Part shown: positions 4,100 to 31,601 of the stretch, piece after piece
How the letters are laid out: each line of letters opens with the position of its first letter
Numbering within the stretch: position 1 is the first letter of the stretch
Virus record (IMG/VR): IMGVR_UViG_3300005095_000164
Location: 1-31,720 of that record
Reading direction: 5' to 3' (one strand)
Source: a virus
Length of the DNA: 31,720 bases
Translations under genes and position numbers: made by a program
The notes under the pieces: model-generated
The model's database searches: none
What the model saw: only the letters and a program-made list of their open reading frames with translations
Told to the model about the DNA's origin: nothing

Positions 4100-4201
4100 T
4101 TCCTTAAAGAAAAGAAGAAGGGTGGTCTTTCTCTTGGTAGTTAGCTTTTCTCTCTTTTAGGACTCTCTCTTTTTTCTTTTTTAGGATAGAGGCGAAGCCT
4201 C
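4100..4201. repeat. Dispersed inverted-repeat element E3 with gene-end hairpin
   Basis: The end TTCCTTAAAGAAAAGAAG at 4100 and the partner end, finishing TTTTTTAGGAT at about 4187, frame a pyrimidine-rich centre. On the minus strand the hairpin GAGGC-TTC-GCCTC (4189-4201) comes first, just after the portal stop, and then the element, the same order as at 1790 and 10563. It separates the portal and minor head genes, so some termination or RNA processing inside this operon is likely. Confidence 0.55.
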
Positions 4202-4207
4202 AAAAAA

Positions 4208-5612: not shown

Positions 5613-5622
5613 ATTATACCTA
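5613..5622 (-). promoter_or_regulatory. Leftward promoter of the portal operon
   Basis: On the minus strand, AGGTATAAT (TATAAT at 5618-5613) lies about 45 bp upstream of the portal ATG. It is back to back with the rightward promoter at 5645-5656. Confidence 0.55.
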
Positions 5623-5880: not shown

Positions 5881-6060
5881 TGCCACATCCTGCCACATAG
5901 CCTGCCAGTAGGAAACGCCCAGCCACAGGGGCTTTGCGAGGATTCGTGCCACTTCCTGCCACATTCTGCCACATTATGCCAAGAGAATTTTCGATGTGGC
6001 ATAGCGCGCAAACGCCCTTGTAGTGGGGCTTTGCGAGGATTTTCTGCCACATTGCCAGTA
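5881..6060. promoter_or_regulatory. Control region R1, left arm (TGCCA decamers plus two GC hairpins)
   Basis: TGCCA sites begin at 5881, 5891 and 5903, then at 5947, 5957, 5967 and 5977 (exactly 10 bp apart), then 6045 and 6053. An opposite-strand TGTGGCA is at 5995-6001. Two GC-rich hairpins lie between the clusters: AAACGCCC with GGGCTTT (5913-5935) and GCAAACGCCC with GGGCTTTGC (6008-6034). Read outward (leftward), it has the same order of parts as the right arm at 6314-6424, with one extra hairpin and site cluster. Confidence 0.75.
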
Positions 6061-6145
6061 AAATCGCAGAAAATTGATTTATAAATTTTAGGTATTCGTC
6101 GTCTTATATAGTGGTTATCTTGGCTGGACTTTCGTGTGTTTTTTT

Positions 6146-6230
6146 TTCCTGAAAGAAAGGAAGTGGATGGGATTTTCTCTTGACATTGTTATCTTTCTTG
6201 TAAGCTCAACCTTTTCCCTTTTTTAAGGAA
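6146..6230. repeat. Dispersed inverted-repeat element E4 inside R1
   Basis: The ends TTCCTGAAAGAAAGGAAG and CCTTTTTTAAGGAA pair imperfectly around a pyrimidine-rich centre. Closely similar copies sit in the same place in R2 (25382) and R3 (31226). Confidence 0.65.
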
Positions 6231-6231
6231 T

Positions 6232-6281
6232 GCGAAGCGAAGCGTAGCTATTTTATACAATACATTACACACTTGTTACAC
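6232..6281. promoter_or_regulatory. R1 core: GCGAAG repeats and two TTACAC sites
   Basis: GCGAA-GCGAA-GCGTAGC (from 6233) is followed by TTACAC at 6265-6270 and again at 6276-6281, 11 bp apart. TTACAC is close to the half-site of the dyad at 6464-6483 read on the other strand. The same core is found at 25468-25519 and 31309-31359. Confidence 0.65.
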
Positions 6282-6313
6282 TATTTTTTATTTTTTAAAA
6301 ATTATATAAAAGA

Positions 6314-6424
6314 TGTGGCAATGTGGCATAAAAACCCTGCAAATGCCCAGCCACAGGGCGTTTGCGAGCCTTGCCACATCCGAAATTCTCTTGGCATTCA
6401 CTGGCATTATGTGGCAGAATGCCA
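6314..6424. promoter_or_regulatory. Control region R1, right arm
   Basis: Order: TGTGGCA (6314), TGTGGCA (6322), the hairpin GCAAATGCCC/GGGCGTTTGC with 7-base loop AGCCACA (6339-6365), TGCCACAT (6372), then TGGCA at 6392, 6402 and 6412 (period 10) and TGCCA at 6420. It is matched almost part for part by 25553-25663 and 31393-31503. Confidence 0.75.
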
Positions 6425-6463: not shown

Positions 6464-6483
6464 TTGTGTAATACACTACACAA
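6464..6483. promoter_or_regulatory. Dyad TTGTGTA-N6-TACACAA upstream of the tape measure operon promoter
   Basis: Perfect 7+7 inverted repeat with a 6-bp spacer. Its centre is about 60 bp upstream of the expected start of transcription from the promoter at 6497-6526, a position typical for an activator that contacts RNA polymerase. The 6+6 form is kept at 25691-25708 and 31541-31558. Confidence 0.7.
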
Positions 6484-6496
6484 ACAAGCTAAAATT

Positions 6497-6526
6497 TTGC
6501 AATTATAACTACTAATACGCTATAAT
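6497..6526 (+). promoter_or_regulatory. Promoter of the tape measure operon
   Basis: TTGCAA (6497-6502), 18-bp spacer, TATAAT (6521-6526). R3 has the same arrangement at 31573-31601. Confidence 0.7.
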
Positions 6527-10659: not shown

Positions 10660-10838
10660 AAAAAGAAAACTCCTAAAGAAAGAAAAACTCTCAACCACCA
10701 AAAACCCAATCCTTCCCTTTTTAAAGAAAAAAAATAAAAGAAATTTACTACTTTTTACTACTTTTTAGCTATTTAAGCGCTTATCTATCTTAAAAAAGAA
10801 TATAACATATATATATAAAAACACAAAATGGAGAAAAT

Positions 10839-10880
10839 ATGAAAAAAATCACAAAAAATTTTAAAAAATACCCTGTTTAA
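10839..10880 (+). CDS. Array A unit 1 mini-ORF, 13 residues
   Basis: MKKITKNFKKYPV, with GGAG six bases before the ATG. The stop TAA is part of the next unit's -35-like TTTAAGAGC. Too short to assign a function; listed because the unit has a promoter and a ribosome-binding site. Confidence 0.3.
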   Translation: MKKITKNFKKYPV

Positions 10881-10942
10881 GAGCTTCTTGCCAAAAGTTT
10901 TTAATATAACATATATATATAGAAACACAAATAAGGAGCCAA

Positions 10943-11020
10943 ATGGAAAGAAATTTAAAGAAATTTGCATTTTTTTTACTAAAAATACTAATTAAGAGAA
11001 GATTTGGTTATCTTCTGTAA
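10943..11020 (+). CDS. Array A unit 2 mini-ORF, 25 residues
   Basis: The ORF starts MERNLKKFAFFLLKILIKRR and ends FGYLL, with AAGGAG six bases before the ATG. The peptide has a basic start, a hydrophobic middle and then a basic end, which could insert in or lie on a membrane. It is similar in its first ten residues to the products at 11168, 11278 and 16065. The stop TAA overlaps the next unit's TAATATAAC. Confidence 0.4.
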   Translation: MERNLKKFAFFLLKILIKRRFGYLL

Positions 11021-11167
11021 TATAACAATTATATAAGTAGTTAAGAAAGGTGCAAAAATGGAAATTTAAAGAAATTTAAGGTTTTTTTTAAAAATAAGTG
11101 GTTTAGGAGCTTCTTAGTGAAACTTTCCAATATAACATATATATAGAAAGTTTAATAAGGAGTAAAA

Positions 11168-11257
11168 ATGAGAAATTTTAAAAAATTCACTATTTTTTTA
11201 AAAATAGATGGTTTAAGAGCGTTTTCTTTCAAATTTTATAATATAACAATAGTATGA
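11168..11257 (+). CDS. Array A unit 4 mini-ORF, 29 residues
   Basis: It begins MRNFKKFTIFLKIDGLRAF and has AAGGAG before the ATG. The coding stretch runs through the next unit's promoter and ends at a TGA within its leader. The same basic plus hydrophobic start is found in the sibling ORFs. No function can be given. Confidence 0.4.
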   Translation: MRNFKKFTIFLKIDGLRAFSFKFYNITIV

Positions 11258-11277
11258 GAAAGTCAAAAGGAGAAAAT

Positions 11278-11367
11278 ATGAGAAATTTAAAGAAATTGCA
11301 ACTTTTTTTTCAAAAAAAGGCAATTAAGAGCTTCTTTCAAAAAGTTTTTAATATAACAATTATATAG
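11278..11367 (+). CDS. Array A unit 5 mini-ORF, 29 residues
   Basis: It begins MRNLKKLQLFFQKKAIKSFF. AAAGGAG lies eight bases before the ATG. It is nearly the same length and design as unit 4 and also reads through the next promoter (ending N-I-T-I-I, encoded by the AATATAACAATTATA box). Shared ends therefore come from the shared promoter sequence. Confidence 0.4.
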   Translation: MRNLKKLQLFFQKKAIKSFFQKVFNITII

Positions 11368-11388
11368 AAACAAACAAAAGGAGTAAAA

Positions 11389-11607
11389 ATGAAAAAAAAC
11401 CAAGAAAAACTTAAAATTAAACTAACTAAAGTTTTTATTTTTAAAAACTATGTTATAATAAATATAGAAAAGCTGATAAGGACATTGCGGTGTCTTTACC
11501 AGCCCGCTCTTAATAACAAAGAGCGGCAAAGGAAAGCCCGAGGTGCTACCAAAAGGGTAGCTAAAAAAATAAAATCTCAAAAAAATAAAAAAAAGGAATC
11601 ACAATGA
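11389..11607 (+). CDS. Array A unit 6 ORF, 72 residues, overlapping the leader RNA element
   Basis: It starts MKKNQEKLKIKLTKVFIFKN after AAAGGAG and ends in a very basic tail. Its stop codon overlaps the ATG of the 11604 gene by four bases (ATGA), normally a sign of coupled translation. However, its second half (from about 11461) is the structured leader RNA described below, and a second promoter (TATAAT at 11454-11459) lies inside it. The loops of that RNA change length between copies, which does not fit conserved protein coding. It may be a leader peptide whose translation affects RNA folding. Confidence 0.35.
   Translation: MKKNQEKLKIKLTKVFIFKNYVIINIEKLIRTLRCLYQPALNNKERQRKARGATKRVAKKIKSQKNKKKESQ
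11454..11459 (+). promoter_or_regulatory. Internal promoter before leader RNA copy 1
   Basis: TGTTATAAT, with transcription expected to start near 11466, just before the first hairpin of the leader RNA (11477). No clear -35 box. Confidence 0.5.
11477..11561 (+). ncRNA. Structured leader RNA element, copy 1 (three hairpins)
   Basis: Hairpin 1: TAAGGACA pairs with TGTCTTTA around the loop TTGCGG (11477-11498). Hairpin 2: CCGCTCTT/AAGAGCGG with loop AATAACA (11504-11526). A linker CAAAGGAAAG leads to hairpin 3: GCTACC/GGTAGC (11545-11561). The gene start is at 11604. Copy 2 at 12156 has the same three hairpins with compensatory base changes. I do not recognise a known riboswitch class. Confidence 0.7.
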
Positions 11608-12126: not shown

Positions 12127-12155
12127 CTTCTTCTTTCAGGAAAAAAAAATCCTTA

Positions 12156-12248
12156 ATTATTGAGAGCGTTAAGGCGCTTTCAATAATCCTCTCTTAAGTA
12201 ACAAAGAGAGGAAAGGAAAGTAACAATGAGGCGCTACCAATGGGTAGC
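12156..12248 (+). ncRNA. Structured leader RNA element, copy 2 (upstream of the helicase)
   Basis: Hairpin 1: ATTATTGAGAGCG/CGCTTTCAATAAT, 13 bp with one G-U pair and loop TTAAGG. Hairpin 2: CCTCTCTT/AAGAGAGG with loop AAGTAACA (12188-12211). Linker AAAGGAAAGTAACAATGAGG. Hairpin 3: GCTACC/GGTAGC (12233-12248). Relative to copy 1, hairpin 2 swaps a G-C pair for a T-A pair, which preserves the stem. The linker also holds a ribosome-binding site and an ATG. Confidence 0.75.
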
Positions 12249-12321
12249 CAACAAAAGAAATAAAATCTCAAAAAAAACAAAAAGAAAGGATTTATTATGG
12301 AAAAAATTAAAAACCATTTAA
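12226..12321 (+). CDS. Possible 31-residue leader peptide overlapping the helicase start
   Basis: ATG at 12226 lies four bases after GGAAAG. The peptide starts MRRYQWVANKRNKISKKTKR and ends 25 bases inside the helicase gene in another frame. Ribosomes translating it would pass through hairpin 3 of the leader RNA. This would suit control of the helicase by upstream translation, but copies 3 and 4 have no matching ORF. Confidence 0.3.
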   Translation: MRRYQWVANKRNKISKKTKRKDLLWKKLKTI

Positions 12322-14003
12322 CTAAAAATTTAGGCTGGAGTAGTGAAAGAGCTTTTACTTATGCAAGTAAAGCCTTAAAATTTGCAAATATAAAAAACGA
12401 ACAAACTGTAGAGTATGGAACAGGCGCGGATTTTTATGAGGAAATCTATAAGAACACTTGTTCAATTAATTGTGACTACTCTACATTTGTTTTTGCAGAA
12501 TCCAAAACACCAAGATTCGCTTTAACAATATTAGATATAATGAAAAACGAGAATGGAGATATAATAGATGTGACTCTTAAAAGTAACGGTAATGTTACCG
12601 ATTTACACACTAAAGTAAGCGCATTTAAACAATTTGGCGCTCAGAAGTGGCTGAAGAGCCTTGGCAAGAACGCTATGTATAATACAGCGCGCTCAGATTT
12701 TTTACCTGATGAGCCTTTTGGTTACAACCCTAAAACAGGAACTTTTAACTTTTTTGTTAAGGGTCTTGCAGGTAAAAGCTACCAAAAAATGGACATAGAA
12801 TTAAATGAGGATAATATTATTGATTATTTAAAAAGCTATACCCCAGCCATATATCTTATTGCAAAAAATGTTTTTGGAGAAAATTTATTAATTAAATATG
12901 CAATAAATAGATTAGCTTATGTGTTACAAAATAACACAAAAGCGCCTACTGCACTTGTATTAGTTGGAGAACAGGGAACTGGAAAAAGCCTGTGGACCGA
13001 TGTTATAAGTAAAACTTATTTCGGAAAATATGGAAAAATTATGAGTGGCGATGAGATAGTAGGTAGTTTTAGAGATAATCTGATAAACACTACATATGCA
13101 GCGGTGCCAGAATTTTTTACCGATATTAATAACAAAAAGGCAACAGGAGTTCTTAAATCTCTTATTACAGATAAAGAAATCGTGATAAATAGAAAAGGTG
13201 TTACAGCTGTTACAATTAGTAACAATATTACGCTTGATTTGACAACTAACCACATTAACGCTATACACATTGAAGAAACAGATAGACGCTTTTGTATTGC
13301 AGAAAGCCAAAATAAACAGCTGAAAGATTTGGTATGGGCAAATTTAGAAGAGTTTGGTTTGGATAGAGAAAAAAATCGCAAAAATTATATGAAGATTTTT
13401 GTTGAGGAAATTCTTCAAAAGGAGCTTGAAATATTTGGGCGTGTATTATACAGCTATGACGCAAATTTTATGGATATTGTTAATATACCAACAACAAAGG
13501 CAAAACTTGAGGCATTAGCGCAAACAAATAGTGACACTTTTATGCCAGTTTTTTATTTAAATAATGGTAAATATAGCGATTTTACGGAAGTTCTTTTAGA
13601 TAATTTAGCTTACAAAAATGGAGAAGCTGTTGCAAAAAAATATGCCATATCTTTATTAAAAAGGATAAAAAATGAACTGGAAGAAATTGGTGGGCTTACC
13701 AATGCAACTCAAGCGGATATTCTTGAGGCAACAACAAACGGCGATATTTTTATAGGTATAAATGAAAATGGAGAAATGAAGATAGATAATTATACTAAAA
13801 AATATAAAAATGCAAAGTTAGTGGGAGCTAAATTTAAGAATTTACCACAAAAAAGAATTAGTAATAAAAGAGTGAGAATACCTAAAGTTGTTGATTTAGA
13901 AAAATTAGAAAAAGCTATCAATCTCTTGAGTTTAGATAATACTCAAGAAAACCTTGAATACAAGAAAATGCAAGAAGAGTTTGAAAAAATAATAGGCAAG
14001 TAA
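12297..14003 (+). CDS. SF3-type replicative helicase, DUF5906-like
   Basis: A 568-residue protein with AAAGGATTTATT before the ATG. The Walker A motif GEQGTGKS (residues 224-231, Lys230) sits in the context LVLVGEQGTGKSLWTDVIS. It is followed by an acidic Walker B-like AAVPEFF near residue 265 and the sensor/arginine region TTNHINAIHIEETDRRF (ending at residue 332). This arrangement is typical of the helicase part of phage and plasmid primase-helicases (D5/P4 alpha class, DUF5906), which act as hexamers unwinding DNA at the fork. The N-terminal 200 residues do not show a primase motif that I recognise, so the primase may be absent or encoded elsewhere. Only clear replication gene in the window; transcribed with its own leader RNA element. 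Confidence 0.8.
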   Translation: MEKIKNHLTKNLGWSSERAFTYASKALKFANIKNEQTVEYGTGADFYEEIYKNTCSINCDYSTFVFAESKTPRFALTILDIMKNENGDIIDVTLKSNGNVTDLHTKVSAFKQFGAQKWLKSLGKNAMYNTARSDFLPDEPFGYNPKTGTFNFFVKGLAGKSYQKMDIELNEDNIIDYLKSYTPAIYLIAKNVFGENLLIKYAINRLAYVLQNNTKAPTALVLVGEQGTGKSLWTDVISKTYFGKYGKIMSGDEIVGSFRDNLINTTYAAVPEFFTDINNKKATGVLKSLITDKEIVINRKGVTAVTISNNITLDLTTNHINAIHIEETDRRFCIAESQNKQLKDLVWANLEEFGLDREKNRKNYMKIFVEEILQKELEIFGRVLYSYDANFMDIVNIPTTKAKLEALAQTNSDTFMPVFYLNNGKYSDFTEVLLDNLAYKNGEAVAKKYAISLLKRIKNELEEIGGLTNATQADILEATTNGDIFIGINENGEMKIDNYTKKYKNAKLVGAKFKNLPQKRISNKRVRIPKVVDLEKLEKAINLLSLDNTQENLEYKKMQEEFEKIIGK

Positions 14004-14043
14004 ACTATCAGAAGAGAAAACACAATTCTCTTCTTTTTTAGGA

Positions 14044-14049
14044 TATAAT
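14044..14049 (+). promoter_or_regulatory. -10 box for the spanin genes
   Basis: GGATATAATAAAT, 22 bases before the ATG at 14071, with AAAGGAT between. No clear -35 box. Confidence 0.45.
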
Positions 14050-14070
14050 AAATAAAAAAAAGGATTAACA

Positions 14071-14370
14071 ATGATAAACATATTAACAAAACTTATAAGT
14101 TTTGTAAACTTTAACAAAATTACTTATATAGCTATTGCAAGCTTAATTGCATATACAAGTTACTTAAAGTTACAAATAAGTAAATGTAATAATGTGATAG
14201 AAGAAAAACAAAATCTGATAGATAGTAGAGAGGCTAAAAGTCTATTAGATAAAACTAAATGCAATAACGCAAAAAATGAACAAATGTTCACAAAAATTAA
14301 AGTAGATAATGAGGCTGAAAGTCCCGAGGACTTTCTTTTAAAATTAAAAAACACAAAAAAGGATAACTAA
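14071..14370 (+). CDS. Inner-membrane spanin subunit (Rz-like)
   Basis: A 99-residue protein with one N-terminal membrane span (about residues 17-33, ITYIAIASLIAYTSYLK) followed by a charged, probably coiled-coil periplasmic part. This is the usual i-spanin design. The next gene encodes a short lipoprotein starting at this gene's stop codon (TAATG). Such a pair forms a bridge between inner and outer membranes and joins them in the last step of lysis of Gram-negative hosts. Two cysteines in the periplasmic part could crosslink subunits. The assignment rests on topology and pairing, since spanins have little sequence conservation. Confidence 0.7.
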   Translation: MINILTKLISFVNFNKITYIAIASLIAYTSYLKLQISKCNNVIEEKQNLIDSREAKSLLDKTKCNNAKNEQMFTKIKVDNEAESPEDFLLKLKNTKKDN

Positions 14371-14627
14371 TGAAAAAAAACTTATTAATATTAATTACTA
14401 TTACAGGCTTATTTACAGGATGTGCAACAACTAACCCAGATTTACCAGAGCCACTTTTAATTGAAATTGCACCACACGCAGATGTGCAAGATATACCAAA
14501 AAATGGGACTAATTACACAAAAATTAAGGCGCTTTTTAAAAAAGAGTATATAAATAATGATAAAAATATTGAGACTTTAAAGGCAATTAGAAGGATTTTT
14601 GAGAGAGCCGAAAGGGAGAGGAAGTAA
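14370..14627 (+). CDS. Outer-membrane spanin lipoprotein (Rz1-like)
   Basis: An 85-residue protein starting MKKNLLILITITGLFTGCAT. The signal peptide ends in a lipobox, LFTGC, with Cys18 as the lipidation site. Thr at +2 and +4 does not suggest retention in the inner membrane. Proline-containing sequence (PDLPEPLLIEIAP) follows, as in many o-spanins, then a basic helical tail. The ATG overlaps the stop of the Rz-like gene. Together they form a separate-gene spanin pair, which shows that the host has an outer membrane. The rest of the lysis genes (holin, XhlA-like, transglycosylase) are 11-16 kb away on the other strand. Confidence 0.75.
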   Translation: MKKNLLILITITGLFTGCATTNPDLPEPLLIEIAPHADVQDIPKNGTNYTKIKALFKKEYINNDKNIETLKAIRRIFERAERERK

Positions 14628-14628
14628 A

Positions 14629-14745
<117 letters not shown>

Positions 14746-14763
14746 TATAATATTAACTAATAT

Positions 14764-14774
14764 TATGGTATAAT
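14764..14774 (+). promoter_or_regulatory. Extended -10 promoter for the 14807 gene
   Basis: TATGGTATAAT, 32 bases before the ATG. Same form as the promoters at 19310 (-) and 20742 (-). Confidence 0.65.
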
Positions 14775-14806
14775 ACTATTAATAAATATTAAAAGGAATT
14801 ATAAGA

Positions 14807-15241
14807 ATGGCTTATAGAAAGTTTGAAAACCCAGAAGACTTAGATTTATTGTATGAGGCAGCCCTAAAGTTTGATGATAATATGTCCATACTTTCGGCTT
14901 ATATACATTTTTTGCAAGGCAGAAATGCAGAGCTACCACCATACAAAATTGAAAATGATTTATTAACTGGTAGTATATATAAATATAAGCGCTACTTATT
15001 GCAGATTATTAATAATACTAATCTGGACGAAATAGAAAATTTTATGAACTTATATAACTTTAACTTAAATAAAATGTTGAGAAACTTAGATAAGAGCTGT
15101 AATATTATAAAAGATAAGCTAAATAAGAAAGAAAAAGTTAATATTAATATATATAAAATAGATAAAATTATCTCAAAATTATTAGAAATTAAAGGACTTG
15201 CAATTGTTAATACTAAAAAATATGAAAAGGAGAAAAAATGA
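14807..15241 (+). CDS. Helical protein of unknown function, coupled to the candidate TerS
   Basis: A 144-residue protein with AAAAGGAATTATAAGA before the ATG and its own extended -10 promoter. It looks wholly helical, with tyrosine-rich and lysine-rich segments. No family is recognised. It shares a four-base ATGA overlap with the next gene, so the two are probably made in a fixed ratio. If the next gene is the small terminase, this could be a partner or accessory packaging factor, but that is only context. Confidence 0.55.
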   Translation: MAYRKFENPEDLDLLYEAALKFDDNMSILSAYIHFLQGRNAELPPYKIENDLLTGSIYKYKRYLLQIINNTNLDEIENFMNLYNFNLNKMLRNLDKSCNIIKDKLNKKEKVNINIYKIDKIISKLLEIKGLAIVNTKKYEKEKK

Positions 15242-15836: not shown

Positions 15837-15887
15837 ATGAAGAAATTTAGAGAAATTTGCAAAAATTTACTAAAAAAAGGCTATTAA
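15837..15887 (+). CDS. Array B unit 1 mini-ORF, 16 residues
   Basis: MKKFREICKNLLKKGY, with AAAGGAG before the ATG. Its stop TAA is in the next unit's ATTAAGAG box. Very short; function unknown. Confidence 0.3.
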   Translation: MKKFREICKNLLKKGY

Positions 15888-15942
15888 GAGAAGATTTGGC
15901 TATCTACTATAATATAACAATTATATATTAACAAGGAGCTAA

Positions 15943-15993
15943 ATGAAAGAAAAAAAGAAAATTAAAGAAATTGAAGATTTTTTTTTAAAATAA
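15943..15993 (+). CDS. Array B unit 2 mini-ORF, 16 residues
   Basis: MKEKKKIKEIEDFFLK, with AAGGAG before the ATG. Charged rather than hydrophobic, so the peptide is not conserved between units. Confidence 0.3.
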   Translation: MKEKKKIKEIEDFFLK

Positions 15994-16064
15994 GCTGTTT
16001 AAGAGCTTCTTAGCTAAAATTTATAATATAACAATAGTATAGAAATTAACAAAGGAGCTAAAAT

Positions 16065-16139
16065 ATGAAAAATTTAAAGAAATTTGCACTTTTTTTTCAA
16101 AAAAAGGTGTTTAAGAGCGTTTTTCTTCTAACTCTATAA
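16065..16139 (+). CDS. Array B unit 3 mini-ORF, 24 residues
   Basis: It starts MKNLKKFALFFQKKVFKSVF and ends LLTL, with AAAGGAG before the ATG. This is the unit closest to the array A peptides (10943 and 11278): basic start, hydrophobic middle, basic, then hydrophobic end. Its stop codon overlaps the next unit's TATAATATAAC. Confidence 0.4.
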   Translation: MKNLKKFALFFQKKVFKSVFLLTL

Positions 16140-16169
16140 TATAACAATATAAGAAGGAGTTAAAAGAGA

Positions 16170-18030: not shown

Positions 18031-19212
18031 ATGATAATGAATGATATATCAAGATATAGCTATAATATATCTTTCAAAAAGATAAAGAGAGCTTATATAG
18101 TAAGATTAGAAAAGCTTATGCAAGCGCAAAATTATATATATAATATGGCGCTTAGATTGCATAACAAAGGGTTTAGTAAAGAACAAATAATTGTTTATCT
18201 AAATGAAAAATTTAAAAATATAACTACTAAAGATGGCAAAACTTGTTATGTGTGTAATAAAAGTGTAATACAAACAGCTGTAAACAATTATTTTACTGCA
18301 TATTTTAATTATATAAAAGGAAATAATGCAGGTAGTTTAGAGGGCTTTAGATATGAAAAACCGAAACCAAAAGATATTAATGATTACTCCAACTTTTTTT
18401 ATCTAAATGACTTTCTTTTAAAAGATTTTGGTAGCTTAATATTAAATAATACAAAGAAAAGGATAGAGTTTAAGTTTTTAGATATAAAGCTTTATATTCC
18501 TTTTAAATATAATATAAATAACATTACCAAATTAAGAAGTATAAGATTATATTATAAAGAGGGATATATAAAAGTTATGATTGAAATGTATAAAAATACA
18601 GAAGTTAATATTAATAAATATAAGAGTAAAAAAGTGGTAGCTATTGATATAGGAAGCTCAAATCTTTTAACTTGTTTTTATAATTTTAAAAACCCAGAAA
18701 TTTACACATTCTCTCAATGTTACTTTAAAAAAAAGGAAAACTTGAGATTTGGAGATTTAGAGTATTATAAAAAATATATAATAACTAATATCTTAAACAA
18801 GTTCATTTCTAATATTAAAAAATATGGAGTTAATGTAATTTATATAGGTAATATGATGAGTGCGAAGTATACTAAAGATAAGAAAGATAAGAGCTTTTTT
18901 ATCTCAATTTTCCATTATTACTTATACATTAAGTTAGACAGAATAGCTCGAAAAAATGGTATTATTGTTAAAAGAATTGACGAAAGCTATACGAGTAGAG
19001 CCAGTTTTTTAGACGGAGATAAAATGGAACATTTCTCCTCTTTTTCTGGAAAAAGAATAAAAAGAGACATATATTTGACACAAAATGGTTACTTAATTAA
19101 TGCAGATATAAACGGTGCCGCTAATATATTAAGAAAAATTGATAGTAGATATAAAAATGATTTAACAGAAAAGCTTATATTGCAAAAGCCCAAAAGATTT
19201 TTATTCTCTTAG
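18031..19212 (+). CDS. Stand-alone TnpB-like RuvC protein (IS200/IS605 OrfB family)
   Basis: A 393-residue protein with AAAGGAAGGTAACATA before the ATG. The N-terminal half matches the RNA/DNA-binding part of TnpB. The RuvC parts are: VVAIDIGSSN with Asp206; an expected second block VNVIYIGNMMSAKYTK with no Glu; DESYTSRASFLDGD with Glu318; and LINADINGAANILRK with Asp359. The CxxC zinc finger of typical TnpB is replaced by FSGKRIKRDIY, as in a known TnpB subgroup in which the catalytic Glu appears to have moved to the ESYTS motif. A D-E-D set is therefore present, and RNA-guided cleavage is possible but unproven. No TnpA gene and no clear element ends are visible, so it may be a domesticated phage gene. 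Confidence 0.8.
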   Translation: MIMNDISRYSYNISFKKIKRAYIVRLEKLMQAQNYIYNMALRLHNKGFSKEQIIVYLNEKFKNITTKDGKTCYVCNKSVIQTAVNNYFTAYFNYIKGNNAGSLEGFRYEKPKPKDINDYSNFFYLNDFLLKDFGSLILNNTKKRIEFKFLDIKLYIPFKYNINNITKLRSIRLYYKEGYIKVMIEMYKNTEVNINKYKSKKVVAIDIGSSNLLTCFYNFKNPEIYTFSQCYFKKKENLRFGDLEYYKKYIITNILNKFISNIKKYGVNVIYIGNMMSAKYTKDKKDKSFFISIFHYYLYIKLDRIARKNGIIVKRIDESYTSRASFLDGDKMEHFSSFSGKRIKRDIYLTQNGYLINADINGAANILRKIDSRYKNDLTEKLILQKPKRFLFS

Positions 19213-20846: not shown

Positions 20847-22181
20847 TTACTTTTTGTTATAGGTAGCTTTAAACATTTCAAGTTTTTTTCCAAAAATACC
20901 ATAAACCAAATAGCCAAATGCGTCCAAAATATGGTCAAAACCTTGCGTTTTATCTGGCTGCCCATTTTTTAAAACCTGTTGTTCCAGACTACTTATTAGT
21001 GATTCGTTTTTATCAGGATAAGTAATAGTTATATTGTTTTTTTCAAAATTATTATTTACCACCAATACTCTATCCTTAATTAAAGGATTAGTTTTTTTAG
21101 CTTTTACTATAAAGCCAGCCTCCTTTAGTAGCTTTATGTCTGTTTTTGAAGCGCCTGTTGTTGTGCGCTGATTGCCAGCTGAGTCGGGATAAATAATAAT
21201 TTCTTCTAAATAACTATAATTTTCTTTTATATATTGAATGGCGGCTGGAGTATCTAATAAATCGTTTTTAGATTCAATTATAAAAAGATGATTATTTACA
21301 AGAACACCCACTACTATTGCCATTTTTTCTATGTTAAAATCCATTCCAATAACAACATTTTTTGGGCTTATTAAACTTAAAATGTCTATATTTTTAACAT
21401 ATTTTTCTCTTTTAAATTTGTAATAAACTGGCTTGTTGTTTAAATTTACAAACTCGCCATTAAGGTAAGCTTTTAATTGTTCTTTTGGATAGTTTTCTAT
21501 TAGGTTTTGTATATAAGTTTTTGGTAAAAATTTATTATCAATGGTTTTAGCTTTTATCAAAATTTTTTGGGGACTTTCTTTCTCCTTTACAAATTTTTTA
21601 TAAACAAACCTAAAACCCTCGGGAGTTGTTGTGATTCCAACTGTATTTAATCCATTATTAAAACTTTTTGGCTTCTTGGCACGATTTCTTCCTATAATTT
21701 TTTCAAAAACATCTTGAGCTTTAGTAGCTGAAAGAGTGTCAAGCTCATCAATGATACAATCGTGTGTCTCAAACCCGACGATTCTTTCAGGATTTGACAT
21801 ACTCCTCATAATTATTTCTATCTTTCCATTATAAAGAGAAAAAATATAGTCCGATTTGTTTAACTTATACTCAATTTTATTTTGACTAAAAAAAGCCTCG
21901 AACTTATCTTTAATTAAAATCTGTTTAATTAAATCATAAGTCGGCTCGTATAGAGCTATCACATATTTCTGCATTTTGCCACTTTTTATACATTTTTTGG
22001 CTTGTTTAATGAAATTAATGGTGCGATACATTAAAGCTTCGGTTTTGCCAGAACCATAGCCACCTACTAAAGCTACCAATTGTTTATCAACAGTTTCAAT
22101 CGCAAATTTTTTTTGGTGAGGCAACAGCGCAATGTATTTTTTCTTTTTTTCTTTGTCTATTTTTTTTACAAATAGTGCCAT
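20847..22181 (-). CDS. terL: Terminase large subunit (TerL)
   Basis: A 444-residue packaging motor with a two-part design. ATPase part: Walker A GGYGSGKT (residues 40-47) and Walker B with catalytic Glu in DCIIDELD (141-148), followed by the coupling region TTTPEGF (185-191). Nuclease part: Asp281 in VIGMDFNIEK, Asp333 in IIYPDSAGNQ and Asp420 in GFDHILDAFGY, the RNase H-like triad. It cuts concatemeric DNA and pumps it through the portal. Length is normal for the SPP1/T4-like group. It is preceded by two carbohydrate-binding-like genes rather than by TerS, and a TerS candidate is on the other strand at 15238. Confidence 0.93.
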   Translation of the reverse strand: MALFVKKIDKEKKKKYIALLPHQKKFAIETVDKQLVALVGGYGSGKTEALMYRTINFIKQAKKCIKSGKMQKYVIALYEPTYDLIKQILIKDKFEAFFSQNKIEYKLNKSDYIFSLYNGKIEIIMRSMSNPERIVGFETHDCIIDELDTLSATKAQDVFEKIIGRNRAKKPKSFNNGLNTVGITTTPEGFRFVYKKFVKEKESPQKILIKAKTIDNKFLPKTYIQNLIENYPKEQLKAYLNGEFVNLNNKPVYYKFKREKYVKNIDILSLISPKNVVIGMDFNIEKMAIVVGVLVNNHLFIIESKNDLLDTPAAIQYIKENYSYLEEIIIYPDSAGNQRTTTGASKTDIKLLKEAGFIVKAKKTNPLIKDRVLVVNNNFEKNNITITYPDKNESLISSLEQQVLKNGQPDKTQGFDHILDAFGYLVYGIFGKKLEMFKATYNKK

Positions 22182-22194
22182 TTTATCGTCCTTT

Positions 22195-22773
22195 TTATGT
22201 TATGTCGTATATAATGAACTCTGAATCACCTGAATAGAGATTACTGTCTCCCGACCATTCTCCAAGTCTATATTTGATGGCGGATTCGTTTGAACTTCCG
22301 CTGCCGCCCCTAACAAATATTTTTGTGGAGTCGTCTGTATTATTTACGCCTGGAGTAACCAATATTAATGGGTTTACAAAATCTGAGCCATCAGCCTTAG
22401 TTATAGTTATTTTTCTATTTGAATCACTATCTATATCTATATTAATATTATCACTTTTAGCTACAACATTCCAGTTTTGTAGCTTACCAAAAGCGAAAAT
22501 ACTCAGGTTTTGCGGGACTATTGTAGTGCTACGCTTAATCCAATAATTTTCGTTGTCAATAGGGATTATTCCCCTATTATAATTGCGTTTTGACATATAA
22601 ATACTTCCATTGTATGTAACTATGTCATCTTTATTATAAAGTTGGTATGGTAGCCAGCTTGTTCCTGTATAGTTAAGGGATTTTTCAATATCTCTCTCAA
22701 AGTTATCTGTTATATTGTCATATAGACTATCTGCGTTGTTGCAAATTGAAAGTTCACATTGTTTTGTAGTCAT
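22195..22773 (-). CDS. Virion protein with a chitin-binding-like (CBM5/12-type) module, copy 1
   Basis: A 192-residue protein with AAAGGAGAAAAAA before the ATG. Residues about 38-75 hold the pattern W-L-P-Y-Q-x-Y-N-K-D-D-I-V-T-Y-N-G-S-I-Y followed by MSKRNYNRG, then W at the end. This is the aromatic pattern of carbohydrate-binding modules of the CBM5/12 class found in phage fibres and decoration proteins. The C-terminal half is beta-rich with a Gly-Ser turn (VRGGSGSSNE). It is one of three diverged paralogues (with 22791 and 26374) that share this module but have different ends. Probable roles are attachment to surface sugars or capsid/tail decoration. Confidence 0.65.
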   Translation of the reverse strand: MTTKQCELSICNNADSLYDNITDNFERDIEKSLNYTGTSWLPYQLYNKDDIVTYNGSIYMSKRNYNRGIIPIDNENYWIKRSTTIVPQNLSIFAFGKLQNWNVVAKSDNINIDIDSDSNRKITITKADGSDFVNPLILVTPGVNNTDDSTKIFVRGGSGSSNESAIKYRLGEWSGDSNLYSGDSEFIIYDIT

Positions 22774-22790: not shown

Positions 22791-23387
22791 TTAATTAAAT
22801 ACGGTAATATGGAGGTATTTGTAATCGTAATAGTCATATTTTCTACTTTCTATTGTAAAATAAGTAGAAGTTTTTTCGATGATATAGCTACTATACATAT
22901 CTGAATCGTATTTGCCCTGAGATACTAAAACAGTATAGTTAGTATCTGTAATTCCTGCGCCAGAATCCAGATAAAATTTTACCTGCATATTATCGTCATT
23001 TTTTGTGTATTCGTAACTACTTATGTTTATATTAGCTTTAAGCTCGTTTGTATCTTTGTATCTAAAAAAGACAGCCGTGGCAACTGGAACAGCGCTTCCT
23101 TTAGTAATATTAGTTGCAGGAGCCAACTTCCAATCACTACTATCTAAACTACTGGTGTTGTCATCCTTTTGACTTATGTAAATACCTCCATTATATGCAA
23201 CTATATCGCCTTCGGCATATGTTATATCTGGATTATGTTGAGAACAAAGTTGGCGTGTTTGTTCCTTTCTTACTTTATCAATATTATCTACATTTAATTC
23301 ATTTGGAATCGTTAAAGGTCCAAATAAAATGTTATTAAATGAAGTGGCAAGAGATTTTGTAAAAGATAAAAGCTCTTCTAAAGTCAT
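22791..23387 (-). CDS. Virion protein with a chitin-binding-like module, copy 2
   Basis: A 198-residue protein. I choose the ATG at 23387, with AAAGGAATACACA before it, over the one at 23438, which lies upstream of the promoter. The module is at residues about 60-90 (YAEGDIVAYNGGIYISQKDD, then a Ser/Asp turn and a W). The C-terminus is beta-rich and tyrosine-rich (RKYDYYDYKYLHITVF). It has its own promoter, TTGCAA-17-TATAAT, so it can be expressed apart from the capsid genes upstream. Likely a decoration or adhesion protein; the ligand is unknown. Confidence 0.65.
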   Translation of the reverse strand: MTLEELLSFTKSLATSFNNILFGPLTIPNELNVDNIDKVRKEQTRQLCSQHNPDITYAEGDIVAYNGGIYISQKDDNTSSLDSSDWKLAPATNITKGSAVPVATAVFFRYKDTNELKANINISSYEYTKNDDNMQVKFYLDSGAGITDTNYTVLVSQGKYDSDMYSSYIIEKTSTYFTIESRKYDYYDYKYLHITVFN

Positions 23388-23409
23388 TGTGTATTCCTTT
23401 TTTGAATAC

Positions 23410-23438
23410 ATTATATCAAAATTAAGAAGAGATTGCAA
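23410..23438 (-). promoter_or_regulatory. Promoter of the carbohydrate-binding-like / terL genes
   Basis: Minus strand TTGCAA (23438-23433), 17-bp spacer, TATAAT (23415-23410). Same arrangement as 27005-27033 and 31573-31601. Confidence 0.7.
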
Positions 23439-25150: not shown

Positions 25151-25156
25151 ATTATA
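25151..25156 (-). promoter_or_regulatory. Promoter of the scaffold/capsid operon
   Basis: AAGCTATAATAC on the minus strand, 34 bases before the ATG at 25117 and about 45 bp from the first TGGCA site of R2. Confidence 0.55.
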
Positions 25157-25198: not shown

Positions 25199-25309
25199 TG
25201 GCATTTATGCCGCATAATGCCAGTAAATGCCAAGAGAAAATTCTATGTGGCAGGCGCGCAAAGCCCCTGCACAAGGGCGTTTGCGAGGATTTTATGCCAG
25301 ATGCCACAT
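25199..25309. promoter_or_regulatory. Control region R2, left arm
   Basis: TGGCA at 25199, then TGCCA-type sites at 25208, 25218 and 25228 (exact 10-bp steps), TGTGGCA at 25246, the GC hairpin GCAAAGCCC/GGGCGTTTGC (25258-25284), TGCCA at 25295 and TGCCACAT at 25302. It lacks the second hairpin and outer cluster seen in R1 and R3. Confidence 0.75.
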
Positions 25310-25381
25310 AAATTAGAGGAAAACTGTTTATAAAATTTTTAAGTAGATAGTTAGCTATCAAGTAGCTCGGAGTTTATTTTT

Positions 25382-25467
25382 TTCCTTAAAGAAAGGAAGA
25401 GGATTGATTTCTCCTGCAAGATTGTATCTTTTATTAAAAGCCCCACCTTTTCCCTTTTTTTTAGGAA
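25382..25467. repeat. Dispersed inverted-repeat element E11 inside R2
   Basis: The end TTCCTTAAAGAAAGGAAGAG pairs with the partner end finishing CCTTTTCCC...TTAGGAA. Same place as E4 in R1 and E13 in R3. Confidence 0.65.
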
Positions 25468-25519
25468 CAGCGAAGCGAAGCGTAGCTATTTTATACAATA
25501 TATTACACACTTGTTACAC
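25468..25519. promoter_or_regulatory. R2 core: GCGAAG repeats and two TTACAC sites
   Basis: GCGAAGCGAAGCGTAGC, then TTACAC at 25503-25508 and 25514-25519, 11 bp apart as in R1 and R3. Confidence 0.65.
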
Positions 25520-25552
25520 TATTTTTTTATTTTTAAAAATTATATAAAAGAA

Positions 25553-25663
25553 GTGGCATATGTGGCACAAACACGCGCAAAGCCCCAGTAGATGGTCGTT
25601 TGCAGGCTATGCCACATAGAAAAATCTACTGGCATCTCTTGGCAAAATGTGGCAGAACTGCCA
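25553..25663. promoter_or_regulatory. Control region R2, right arm
   Basis: GTGGCA at 25553, TGTGGCA at 25561, a hairpin with GCAAAGCCCC and a changed partner GGTCGTTTGC (25577-25603), TGCCACAT at 25610, TGGCA at 25630, 25640 and 25650, and TGCCA at 25659. It is kept although no operon starts on this side. Confidence 0.75.
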
Positions 25664-26373: not shown

Positions 26374-26982
26374 TTATAGCGCAAAAAACAACAAATGTAT
26401 CTGGTTTGGATTAATTTTGGTTTCGTTGTTTTTTTGAAAGCCTTGAACGAAATAATTTGATTCTTCTTCTTCACGCCAATACATAATAATCCAGTTGCCA
26501 TCATTAGACTCATCTATATAATAGGCGGTTGGAATCACGATATATCCATTATCATAATTGTTTTTTAATGTAAATTTGTATAAGCCGTCCTGAAGTTTTT
26601 CTACATTATCAATAATATTGCCCGTGTCTTTTATAATTCCATTGTCTTTATCCCAAAGAACTATGTCGGCTCCAATTACCTCGCCTCCACCATCTGTGTT
26701 ACTACTCGCCTGCCAAGCCGCGGCGTTATCTGGCGATTCTGTATTGTTATCAATTTTTGAAAGGTAAATATCCCCGTTATATGTAACTAAATCGCCCTTC
26801 TGGTATATTTCTGTGTCTTTGTATTTTGAGCCTAATTTATCTTTTTTCTCACCTATCACAGTTTTATAAGTTTTTACTCCGTCAATTTCTGAATCATCAG
26901 TGTTAGTAAGAAGGTTTTTTAGCCAAGTAGAAGCGCTTTCTAATTTATTTTTACAAGCTTCAAAGTCAATTATATAAGCCAT
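26374..26982 (-). CDS. Virion protein with a chitin-binding-like module, copy 3
   Basis: A 202-residue protein with AAAGGAATAAGA before the ATG and a TTGCAA-17-TATAAT promoter. The module is at residues about 60-90: IYQKGDLVTYNGDIYLSKID, then NNTESPDNAAAW. The following part (GADIVLWDKDNGIIKDTGN) and the C-terminal strands differ from the two other copies. It lies after the tail tube gene, so it may be a tail decoration or a fibre-like adhesin. The three copies diverged in their ends but kept the module, which suggests selection for sugar binding. Confidence 0.65.
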   Translation of the reverse strand: MAYIIDFEACKNKLESASTWLKNLLTNTDDSEIDGVKTYKTVIGEKKDKLGSKYKDTEIYQKGDLVTYNGDIYLSKIDNNTESPDNAAAWQASSNTDGGGEVIGADIVLWDKDNGIIKDTGNIIDNVEKLQDGLYKFTLKNNYDNGYIVIPTAYYIDESNDGNWIIMYWREEEESNYFVQGFQKNNETKINPNQIHLLFFAL

Positions 26983-27039: not shown

Positions 27040-27136
27040 TTCCTGAAAGAAGAAAAAGTTCAGAATTATAAGAAGAAGAATTTTATATCAAGAAAGCCCA
27101 CCTCTTCCCTTTTTTAAGGAAAAGAGGCGAAGCCTC
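27040..27136. repeat. Dispersed inverted-repeat element E12 with gene-end hairpin
   Basis: On the minus strand, the hairpin GAGGC-TTC-GCCTC (27136-27124) follows the tail tube stop, then the element runs from 27121 to 27040, with ends TTCCTTAAAAAAGGGAAGAG and CTTCTTTCAGGAA. Same hairpin-then-element order as at 1790, 10563 and 4201. Confidence 0.65.
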
Positions 27137-27147
27137 AAAAAGAAGAA

Positions 27148-30971: not shown

Positions 30972-31150
30972 TGCCGCATTGTGCCACATAGCGTGCCAGT
31001 GCCAAAGCCCCAGTGGTAGGGCGTTTGCGAGCTTTTATGCCGCGTTTTGCCACTTCCTGCCACATTCTGCCAAGAGAAAAAAAGATGTGGCAGGCGCGCA
31101 AAGCCCCATCAGCTGGGCGTTTGCGAGGAATCTCTGCCACATTGCCGCAT
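30972..31150. promoter_or_regulatory. Control region R3, left arm
   Basis: TGCCR-type sites at 30972, 30982 and 30994; a GC hairpin CAAAGCCC/GGGCGTTTG (31003-31027); sites at 31038, 31048, 31058 and 31068, all 10 bp apart; TGTGGCA at 31086; a second hairpin GCAAAGCCCC/GGGCGTTTGC with the loop core ATCAGCT (31098-31124); TGCCACAT at 31135 and TGCCGCAT at 31143. Same parts in the same order as the R1 left arm. Confidence 0.75.
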
Positions 31151-31225
31151 ATTTTGGATTTTTTGTTTTATGTTTTTTTACATTTACTGCCATTGTATGG
31201 GCATATCGGTTTTTCTGTATTTTTT

Positions 31226-31308
31226 TTCCTGAAAGAAAGGAAGAGGTTATTGTTTCTCTTAGATTGTTATCTTTCTTTAAGCTTGAACTCTTTCTCTTTT
31301 TTAAGGAA
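31226..31308. repeat. Dispersed inverted-repeat element E13 inside R3
   Basis: The ends TTCCTGAAAGAAAGGAAGAG and CTCTTTTTTAAGGAA pair imperfectly around a pyrimidine-rich centre, as in E4 and E11. Confidence 0.65.
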
Positions 31309-31359
31309 CAGCGAAGCGAAGCGTAGCTATATATACAATATATTACACACTTGTTACAC
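31309..31359. promoter_or_regulatory. R3 core: GCGAAG repeats and two TTACAC sites
   Basis: GCGAAGCGAAGCGTAGC, then TTACAC at 31343-31348 and 31354-31359, 11 bp apart. Confidence 0.65.
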
Positions 31360-31392
31360 TATTTTTTTATTTTTAAAAATTATATAAAAGAA

Positions 31393-31503
31393 GTGGCATA
31401 TGTGGCACAAACACGCGCAAAACCCCATCAGCTGGGCGTTTGCGAGCCTTGCCACATACGAAATTCTCTTGGCATCTCTTGGCAAAATGTGGCATAACTG
31501 CCA
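31393..31503. promoter_or_regulatory. Control region R3, right arm
   Basis: GTGGCA at 31393, TGTGGCA at 31401, the hairpin GCAAAACCCC/GGGCGTTTGC with loop core ATCAGCT (31417-31443), TGCCACAT at 31450, TGGCA at 31470, 31480 and 31490, and TGCCA at 31499. Spacings are the same as in the right arms of R1 and R2. Confidence 0.75.
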
Positions 31504-31572: not shown

Positions 31573-31601
31573 TTGCAATTTTAATACTAATAAGTTATAA
31601 T
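31573..31601 (+). promoter_or_regulatory. Rightward promoter after R3
   Basis: TTGCAA (31573-31578), 17-bp spacer, TATAAT (31596-31601). An AAAAAGGAATAAACT leader and the ATG at 31627 follow. Confidence 0.7.

Follow-up and report, generated by a model that had tools for sequence, protein, structure and literature searches.

The DNA analysed here, which we call the window, spans a complete virus record (31,720 bases), and the question it raises is what is built from, and what might read, the short TGCCA and TGGCA sites that step along it at intervals of exactly 10 bp. The initial annotation had described such clusters in six places, and direct inspection of the sequence found all six at the coordinates given; 18 of the 20 pentamers are indeed TGCCA or TGGCA, while those at 25208 and 31038 read TGCCG. 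The periodicity that the annotation proposed comparing with randomised controls is borne out by them: same-strand pairs at exactly 10 bp number 13, whereas 300 first-order Markov copies average 0.02 and never exceed 1, and there are six 10-bp triples, as compared with none in all 300 copies. A scan of the window finds no such triples at any other period from 6 to 30, and no 10-bp triples outside the three elements described below, which hold 46 of the window's 101 TGCCA/TGGCA sites in 1613 bases (5% of its length). Among all 5-mers with at least three different letters, 10-bp triples are confined to TGCCA (3), TGGCA (3) and the shifted readings GCCAC (1) and ATGCC (1). As the triples are limited to this word and this period, they are not a composition effect, and the objection that the same period might be common in coding sequence fails.

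The arrays are the arms of a single element of about 500 bases, present in three copies in the same orientation in this 31.7-kb phage genome (c1, c2 and c3, Table 1). Each copy has two mirror-image sets of sites around a middle of 200–260 bp. On the left, an array of direct sites is followed 20 bp on by an inverted site, a quasi-palindrome and more sites, and the right arm mirrors this arrangement with the same spacings; in all three copies the order is > 10 > 20 < 47-48 > ... < 47-48 > 20 < 10 < 10 <. The spacings of 20, 47–48 and 7–9 are conserved as well as the 10-bp step, and many sites extend beyond the pentamer (TGCCACAT), the fuller word being TGCCACA/TGTGGCA. The best-conserved segment is a block of about 80 bp between the arms, consisting of GCGAAGCGAAGCGTAGC, TTACAC-N5-TTACAC and then nearly pure A/T. 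It is 91–98% identical between copies, whereas the arrays are 53–86% and the variable part of the middle 54–60% identical. In 60-bp windows of this block the AT content is 80–87%; for the whole gap between the arms it is 70–72%, against 69% for the record.

Table 1. Coordinates of the features of the window
Feature	Position	Strand	Description	Basis
Element c1	5881..6424		left arm 5881-6057, middle, right arm 6316-6424; 17 TGCCA/TGGCA sites	
Element c2	25199..25663		13 TGCCA/TGGCA sites and TGCCG at 25208	
Element c3	30972..31503		16 TGCCA/TGGCA sites and TGCCG at 30972, 31038, 31143	
10-bp array, c1 left arm	5947..5981	+	four TGCCA	direct sequence check
10-bp array, c1 right arm	6392..6416	-	three TGGCA	direct sequence check
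10-bp array, c2 left arm	25208..25232	+	TGCCG then two TGCCA	direct sequence check
10-bp array, c2 right arm	25630..25654	-	three TGGCA	direct sequence check
10-bp array, c3 left arm	31038..31072	+	TGCCG then three TGCCA	direct sequence check
10-bp array, c3 right arm	31470..31494	-	three TGGCA	direct sequence check
Quasi-palindrome, c1 left	6007..6038		CGCAAA..CCC-N7-GGG..TTTGCG	fuzzy pattern scan
Other quasi-palindromes (starts)	5910, 6338, 25257, 25576, 31001, 31097, 31416			fuzzy pattern scan
AT-rich block, c1	6232..6313		conserved GCGAAGCGAAGCGTAGC and AT-rich block with TTACAC-N5-TTACAC; candidate melting region	
AT-rich block, c2	25470..25551			
AT-rich block, c3	31311..31391			
Dyad	6465..6482 (c1); 25691 (c2); 31541 (c3), one base changed		TGTGTAATACACTACACA, just outside right arm	
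Helicase	12297..14003	+	SF3-type, 568 aa, DUF5906, VapE-like; putative cognate initiator	Pfam, PDB matches

The fuzzy pattern scan found no quasi-palindromes in the window beyond the eight within the elements, and most of their stems, by eye, share one two-base mismatch. Their 17-bp core is inverted in c1 (5910, 6007) relative to c2 and c3 (25257, 31097), and some loops are common to the arms within a copy (5910 and 6338; 31097 and 31416); on these sequence patterns, both may be signs of template switching or gene conversion. Each element has a second type of repeat, made up of a TGTGTA..TACACA dyad (Table 1) and the paired TTACAC hexamers, which step by 11 bp (6265/6276, 25503/25514, 31343/31354). 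A terminator-like unit, CTTTTTTAAGGAA..GAGGCGAAGCCTC, is repeated at gene ends (1791-1832, 4167-4206, 27095-27141), and a related unit occurs mid-element in each copy. The window contains no DnaA box (TTATCCACA, TTATNCACA) and no Rfam match. Searching with the exact core pattern revealed no further copy of the element, either in IMG/VR or among 84,980 species represented by one genome each; at the DNA level, c2 has no relatives in plasmids and three weak matches in phages.

Where the elements lie bears on their possible role. The ends of the window do not join in frame, and circularity is therefore not claimed; GC skew tracks gene direction and does not locate an origin. All three copies are found at the 5' ends of structural cassettes and none at early genes. 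Element c1 lies between the portal cassette (minus strand) and the plus-strand tail chaperone-like/tape-measure cassette, which has two small genes besides the tape measure. Element c2 is upstream of a minus-strand scaffold-like/capsid-like/terminase cassette, in which the labels scaffold and capsid rest on position, with no family match, and c3 is upstream of a minus-strand lysozyme/tail cassette, with a second gene start (plus strand) to its right. No relative of the capsid-like or the portal protein was found in phages, nor of the portal in viral contigs.

The only replication protein found in the window is the SF3-type helicase encoded at 12297-14003. It matches the DUF5906 (E 5.4e-15) and VapE-like (E 5e-7) profiles, as well as PDB 'Primase' chains 6k9c/6k9e (E 8.6e-13), which we take to be the enzyme of Nitratiruptor phage NrS-1. 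No relative of the helicase was found in viral contigs, and the quality of its AlphaFold model (pLDDT 34) is too low for a DNA-binding domain to be recognised. The elements are more than 5 kb away from the end of the helicase gene, and in the stretch behind it (14003-14900) no repeat cluster scores better than a log10P of -3.6.

Like arrays in other virus and genome contigs provide a wider context. The three-site pattern leads to one unrelated contig (L025, 60% GC) with TGCCACA/TGTGGCA arrays, and the heptamer pattern to 68 contigs, in which 9-bp repeats of coding sequence are mixed with true two-way arrays between genes. Raw heptamer counts were rejected as evidence, with a scrambled pattern reaching 47 contigs against 14 for the real two-orientation pattern. 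On inspection, the scrambled-pattern contigs hold coding repeats, some of them collagen-like, alongside genuine two-way TGGTGCA arrays; the scrambled word was therefore a poor control and became a second example.

In unrelated phage contigs, two-way TGTGGCA arrays typically start 0–150 bp 3' of a helicase-primase gene. They follow VapE in three contigs (L029, L036, L065), AAA_25 in six (L051, L058, L069, L118, L120, L123) and a DnaG-type gene in one (L042), and the scan of genome contigs adds arrays behind DUF927 (L104) and BT4734/PriCT_2 (L096). Two-way TGGTGCA arrays likewise stand behind helicase-primases in L133, L140, L143 and L166; L165 is an exception, in which the array precedes a DnaB-type helicase gene. 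A helicase stop just before the array is found in 25 of 69 rows with spacings that are not all multiples of 3, against six of 93 with coding-like spacing, a count that is not blind, the helicase queries having been drawn from the same loci, and in which three of the six belong to a single array family whose 9,9 spacing put it in the wrong class. For array context, hand-picked loci were inspected by eye. Pfam confirmed 18 of 20 neighbour proteins as helicase-primase enzymes (VapE, AAA_25, DUF5906/D5, Prim-Pol, DnaG, DnaB, DUF927 and BT4734/PriCT_2 families); the 19th is a Toprim protein and the 20th (L041) was not confirmed. The gap from stop to array ranges from -15 to 146 bp at the 18 loci listed. 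Within the contig DNA examined, a helicase just before the array is absent in, for example, L025, L041, L047, L138 and L153. TGTGGCA pairs are present in 14 of 14 records and TGGTGCA pairs in 12 of 12, and they occupy one place per record in all except the window.

Some further observations were made in these contigs. GC hairpins lie near 18 of 27 arrays, as against 9.8 expected, an excess that is partly iteron self-pairing and from which we therefore make no claim. Seven of the 23 genome-contig matches (L097, L098, L102, L105, L106, L109, L112) belong to a repeat family dispersed in two Chloroflexota assemblies, whose conserved core has three TTGTGGCA-like sites. The sequence GCTGATTATCAG follows arrays in a family of phage contigs (L042 3871-3998, L046 8935-9062) and in a Prevotellaceae genome (L095 942-968).

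The position of such arrays was also tested with no word named, by locating the best 6-mer cluster around helicase relatives in 18 named phage and satellite loci, hand-picked from the match lists, with 20 Markov copies of each locus as the null. In nine of the 18 a cluster exceeds the best of the 20 shuffles, and all nine clusters begin between -12 and +503 bp relative to the stop of the helicase gene, with a word particular to each locus. These are Moraxella phage Mcat3, Halomonas phage H4907, Pseudomonas phage vB_Pae_U5, Staphylococcus phage vB_SauS_JS02, Gardnerella phage vB_Gva_AB1, Paenibacillus phage Dante, satellite Javan86, Streptococcus phage P738 and Roseobacter phage CRP-821. No cluster beyond the shuffles was seen in Vibrio VP2, Pseudomonas LKO4, Alteromonas ZP6, Bordetella MW2, MW202621, Bacteroides BC679P2, Leuconostoc Ln-8, Bacteroides BT24 and Caulobacter GB2A. 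An annotated DNA polymerase gene lies in the stretch in six of the nine negatives (all save MW202621, BC679P2 and GB2A) and in one of the nine positives (Gardnerella AB1), a split that was seen post hoc and serves as a lead only.

On balance, we consider it somewhat probable that the elements are initiator-binding, origin-type iterons that have been displaced and triplicated. Two opposed sets of short iterons would load a phage-coded initiator, one unit per helical turn, and that initiator would most likely be the SF3 helicase. Once loaded, it would open the conserved AT-rich block between the arms, and replication might start at any of the copies. The phage would have its three sites where structural cassettes begin, and not the usual single site behind the helicase gene. 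This reading is supported by the mirror-image order and spacing, by the strong conservation of the AT-rich block, by the helicase's match to the 'Primase' chains, by the published iteron origins described below, and by the position of like arrays 3' of helicase-primase genes elsewhere, including a plasmid-like contig (L096) and a Halomonas phage (L177) whose array is far from the terminase. Several findings speak against it: no array lies behind the window's helicase, yet that position is the rule elsewhere; three places per record are exceptional; the gap between the arms, taken as a whole, has scarcely more AT than the record; all three elements are at the heads of structural cassettes; and the same word stands beside unrelated helicase families, so that the helicase may not be its reader. 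The protein pictured in the initial annotation, binding side by side with one site per turn, fits all the results of the analysis, with binding itself as something we infer. Among the candidates it listed, initiators are favoured by the comparison with other phages, a ParB-like protein has no match by Pfam in the 30 of 35 listed window proteins that were scanned, and a cooperative activator is retained because all three elements are at the heads of structural cassettes.

The closest parallel is with the origins of SaPIs and other PICIs. According to PMC6092414 and PMC7581432, these consist of short iterons in two sets, with an AT-rich stretch between them, in an element that encodes its helicase initiator; PMC7581432 places the iterons recognised by the SaPI Rep directly behind the rep gene. 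The window elements appear to work like such an origin, with two iteron sets, in this case in opposite orientation, a conserved AT-rich block as the candidate melting region, and a helicase of the matching SF3/VapE type, putatively cognate, encoded in the same genome. However, the SaPI/PICI origin is single and immediately 3' of rep, while the window element is present three times and not behind the helicase gene, and for these reasons we do not class it as a member of the PICI type. The Cch2 helicase of SCCmec, according to PMC7581432, binds 5-nt direct iterons that occupy 23 bp of the intergenic region downstream of the operon; these iterons number three, as compared with 13–17 sites in mirror arms here. 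In pRN1 and BIP-1 the origin is likewise 3' of the gene for a prim-pol and SF3 helicase, and that of pRN1 stays functional after relocation elsewhere (PMC4234260). The element recognised in pRN1 and BIP-1 is a stem-loop, however, and not an iteron array. Phage P4, like the window, has more than one iteron site per genome (ori and crr), served by one helicase-primase, the alpha protein, and its decamer and layout differ from those of the window elements. PMC6092414 mentions both P4 alpha and the ori that belongs to it.

The main rival, on account of the location of the copies, is late-gene control, in which a cooperative phage regulator would fill the arrays and switch the adjacent divergent structural promoters on or off, with no link to replication required. 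The cassette heads occupied by the elements (portal; tail/tape measure; scaffold/capsid/terminase; lysozyme/tail; tail tip) agree with this, as do TATAAT-type -10 boxes beyond the elements, on the plus strand at 6521 and near 31596 and on the minus strand at 25156 and near 5617 and 30945, and the arrays that precede terminase genes in many other phages. We nevertheless judge it unlikely. The distances from array to promoter are about 25, 45, 95, 100 and 265 bp by eye, with no constant phase; the right arm of c2 is conserved like that of c3 (86–87%) though it faces a gene end without a promoter; and elsewhere arrays follow helicases also where no terminase directly follows, as in L096 and in the Halomonas phage L177, where the array is flanked by the primase gene and an antitermination gene and the terminase is far away. 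Nor is there a match to a known array-binding regulator among 30 of the 35 window proteins. MraZ boxes are also short direct repeats, one per 10 bp, but the known boxes are few and one-sided, and no MraZ/AbrB-fold protein is found in the same set of proteins.

A further rival is a packaging site, with arrays bound by the ring-shaped small terminase subunit. The frequent position of arrays between replication and terminase genes in other contigs would suit it, yet one genome here has three far-apart copies, the window's large terminase (20847-22181) adjoins none of them, and arrays also occur in the plasmid-like contig L096 and before the antitermination gene of L177, all of which makes it quite improbable. 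Sites of the parC type are arrays of 8–11 bp repeats flanking a promoter, and the window arrays resemble them. A role in partition, as a centromere for a phage that persists in a plasmid-like state (arrays of the ParR/ParB/omega type), would also accord with L096, in which, by eye, the primase and array are followed by a ParA-like gene; the 30 window proteins scanned, of 35 listed, gave no match to ParA, ParM, TubZ, ParB or ribbon-helix-helix proteins, and we regard this role as very improbable. A transposable or recombination repeat without phage function (MITE-like or an invertase site) is the least probable of all: inverted arms of about 100 bp, three copies and oppositely directed quasi-palindrome cores recall one, but the exact core pattern is confined to this genome in the searches above, the copies are only at cassette heads, their spacing is kept while the sequence drifts, and the window proteins scanned match no recombinase or DDE transposase, TnpB being the only transposon-type protein.

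Returning to the reading of the elements as displaced origins, replication and late-gene roles may be combined. A broader version, which is tentative and rather unlikely as a whole, has three initiator-loaded origin cassettes at the heads of late operons, with the replication helicase or a partner also timing the structural genes, and has the placement rule general across tailed phages, one word each, and broken here by moving and multiplying the site. To our knowledge, the origins of most tailed phages are unknown. Our comparison suggests a simple search rule for them, namely to inspect the DNA immediately 3' of VapE/DUF5906/AAA_25-type helicase-primase genes for clustered short repeats. The placement of an iteron array behind a helicase-primase is reported, in a passage of the PICI literature, as unique to PICIs, and the array-bearing phages found here suggest that it is not. 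Among the matches listed from the open-access literature, mostly at title and abstract level, we found no description of TGTGGCA arrays or of the placement rule in tailed phages. As the window phage indicates, the module can be relocated as well as triplicated, and this makes a link between replication and late transcription testable.

Several other features of the window deserve mention. Similar leaders at 11456-11565 and 12140-12250, with paired stems CTCTT..AAGAG and GCTACC..GGTAGC, lie upstream of the genes at 11604 and 12297 and are possible structured RNA control elements, with no Rfam match. Tandem units of about 110 bp at 10833-11400 and 15840-16160 each combine a ribosome-binding site and a tiny ORF of about 15–30 codons with a TAATATAACA promoter-like box; from their sequence, they are a candidate family, present in multiple copies, of genes for tiny peptides or of leader RNAs. 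A TnpB/Cas12f-like protein (PF07282) is phage-coded at 18031-19212, between two cassettes. Finally, the genes at 22195-22773, 22791-23438 and 26374-26982 encode paralogous proteins with a YNGxIYxS motif, two of which match CBM_5_12 weakly and one of which weakly matches tail-fibre families.
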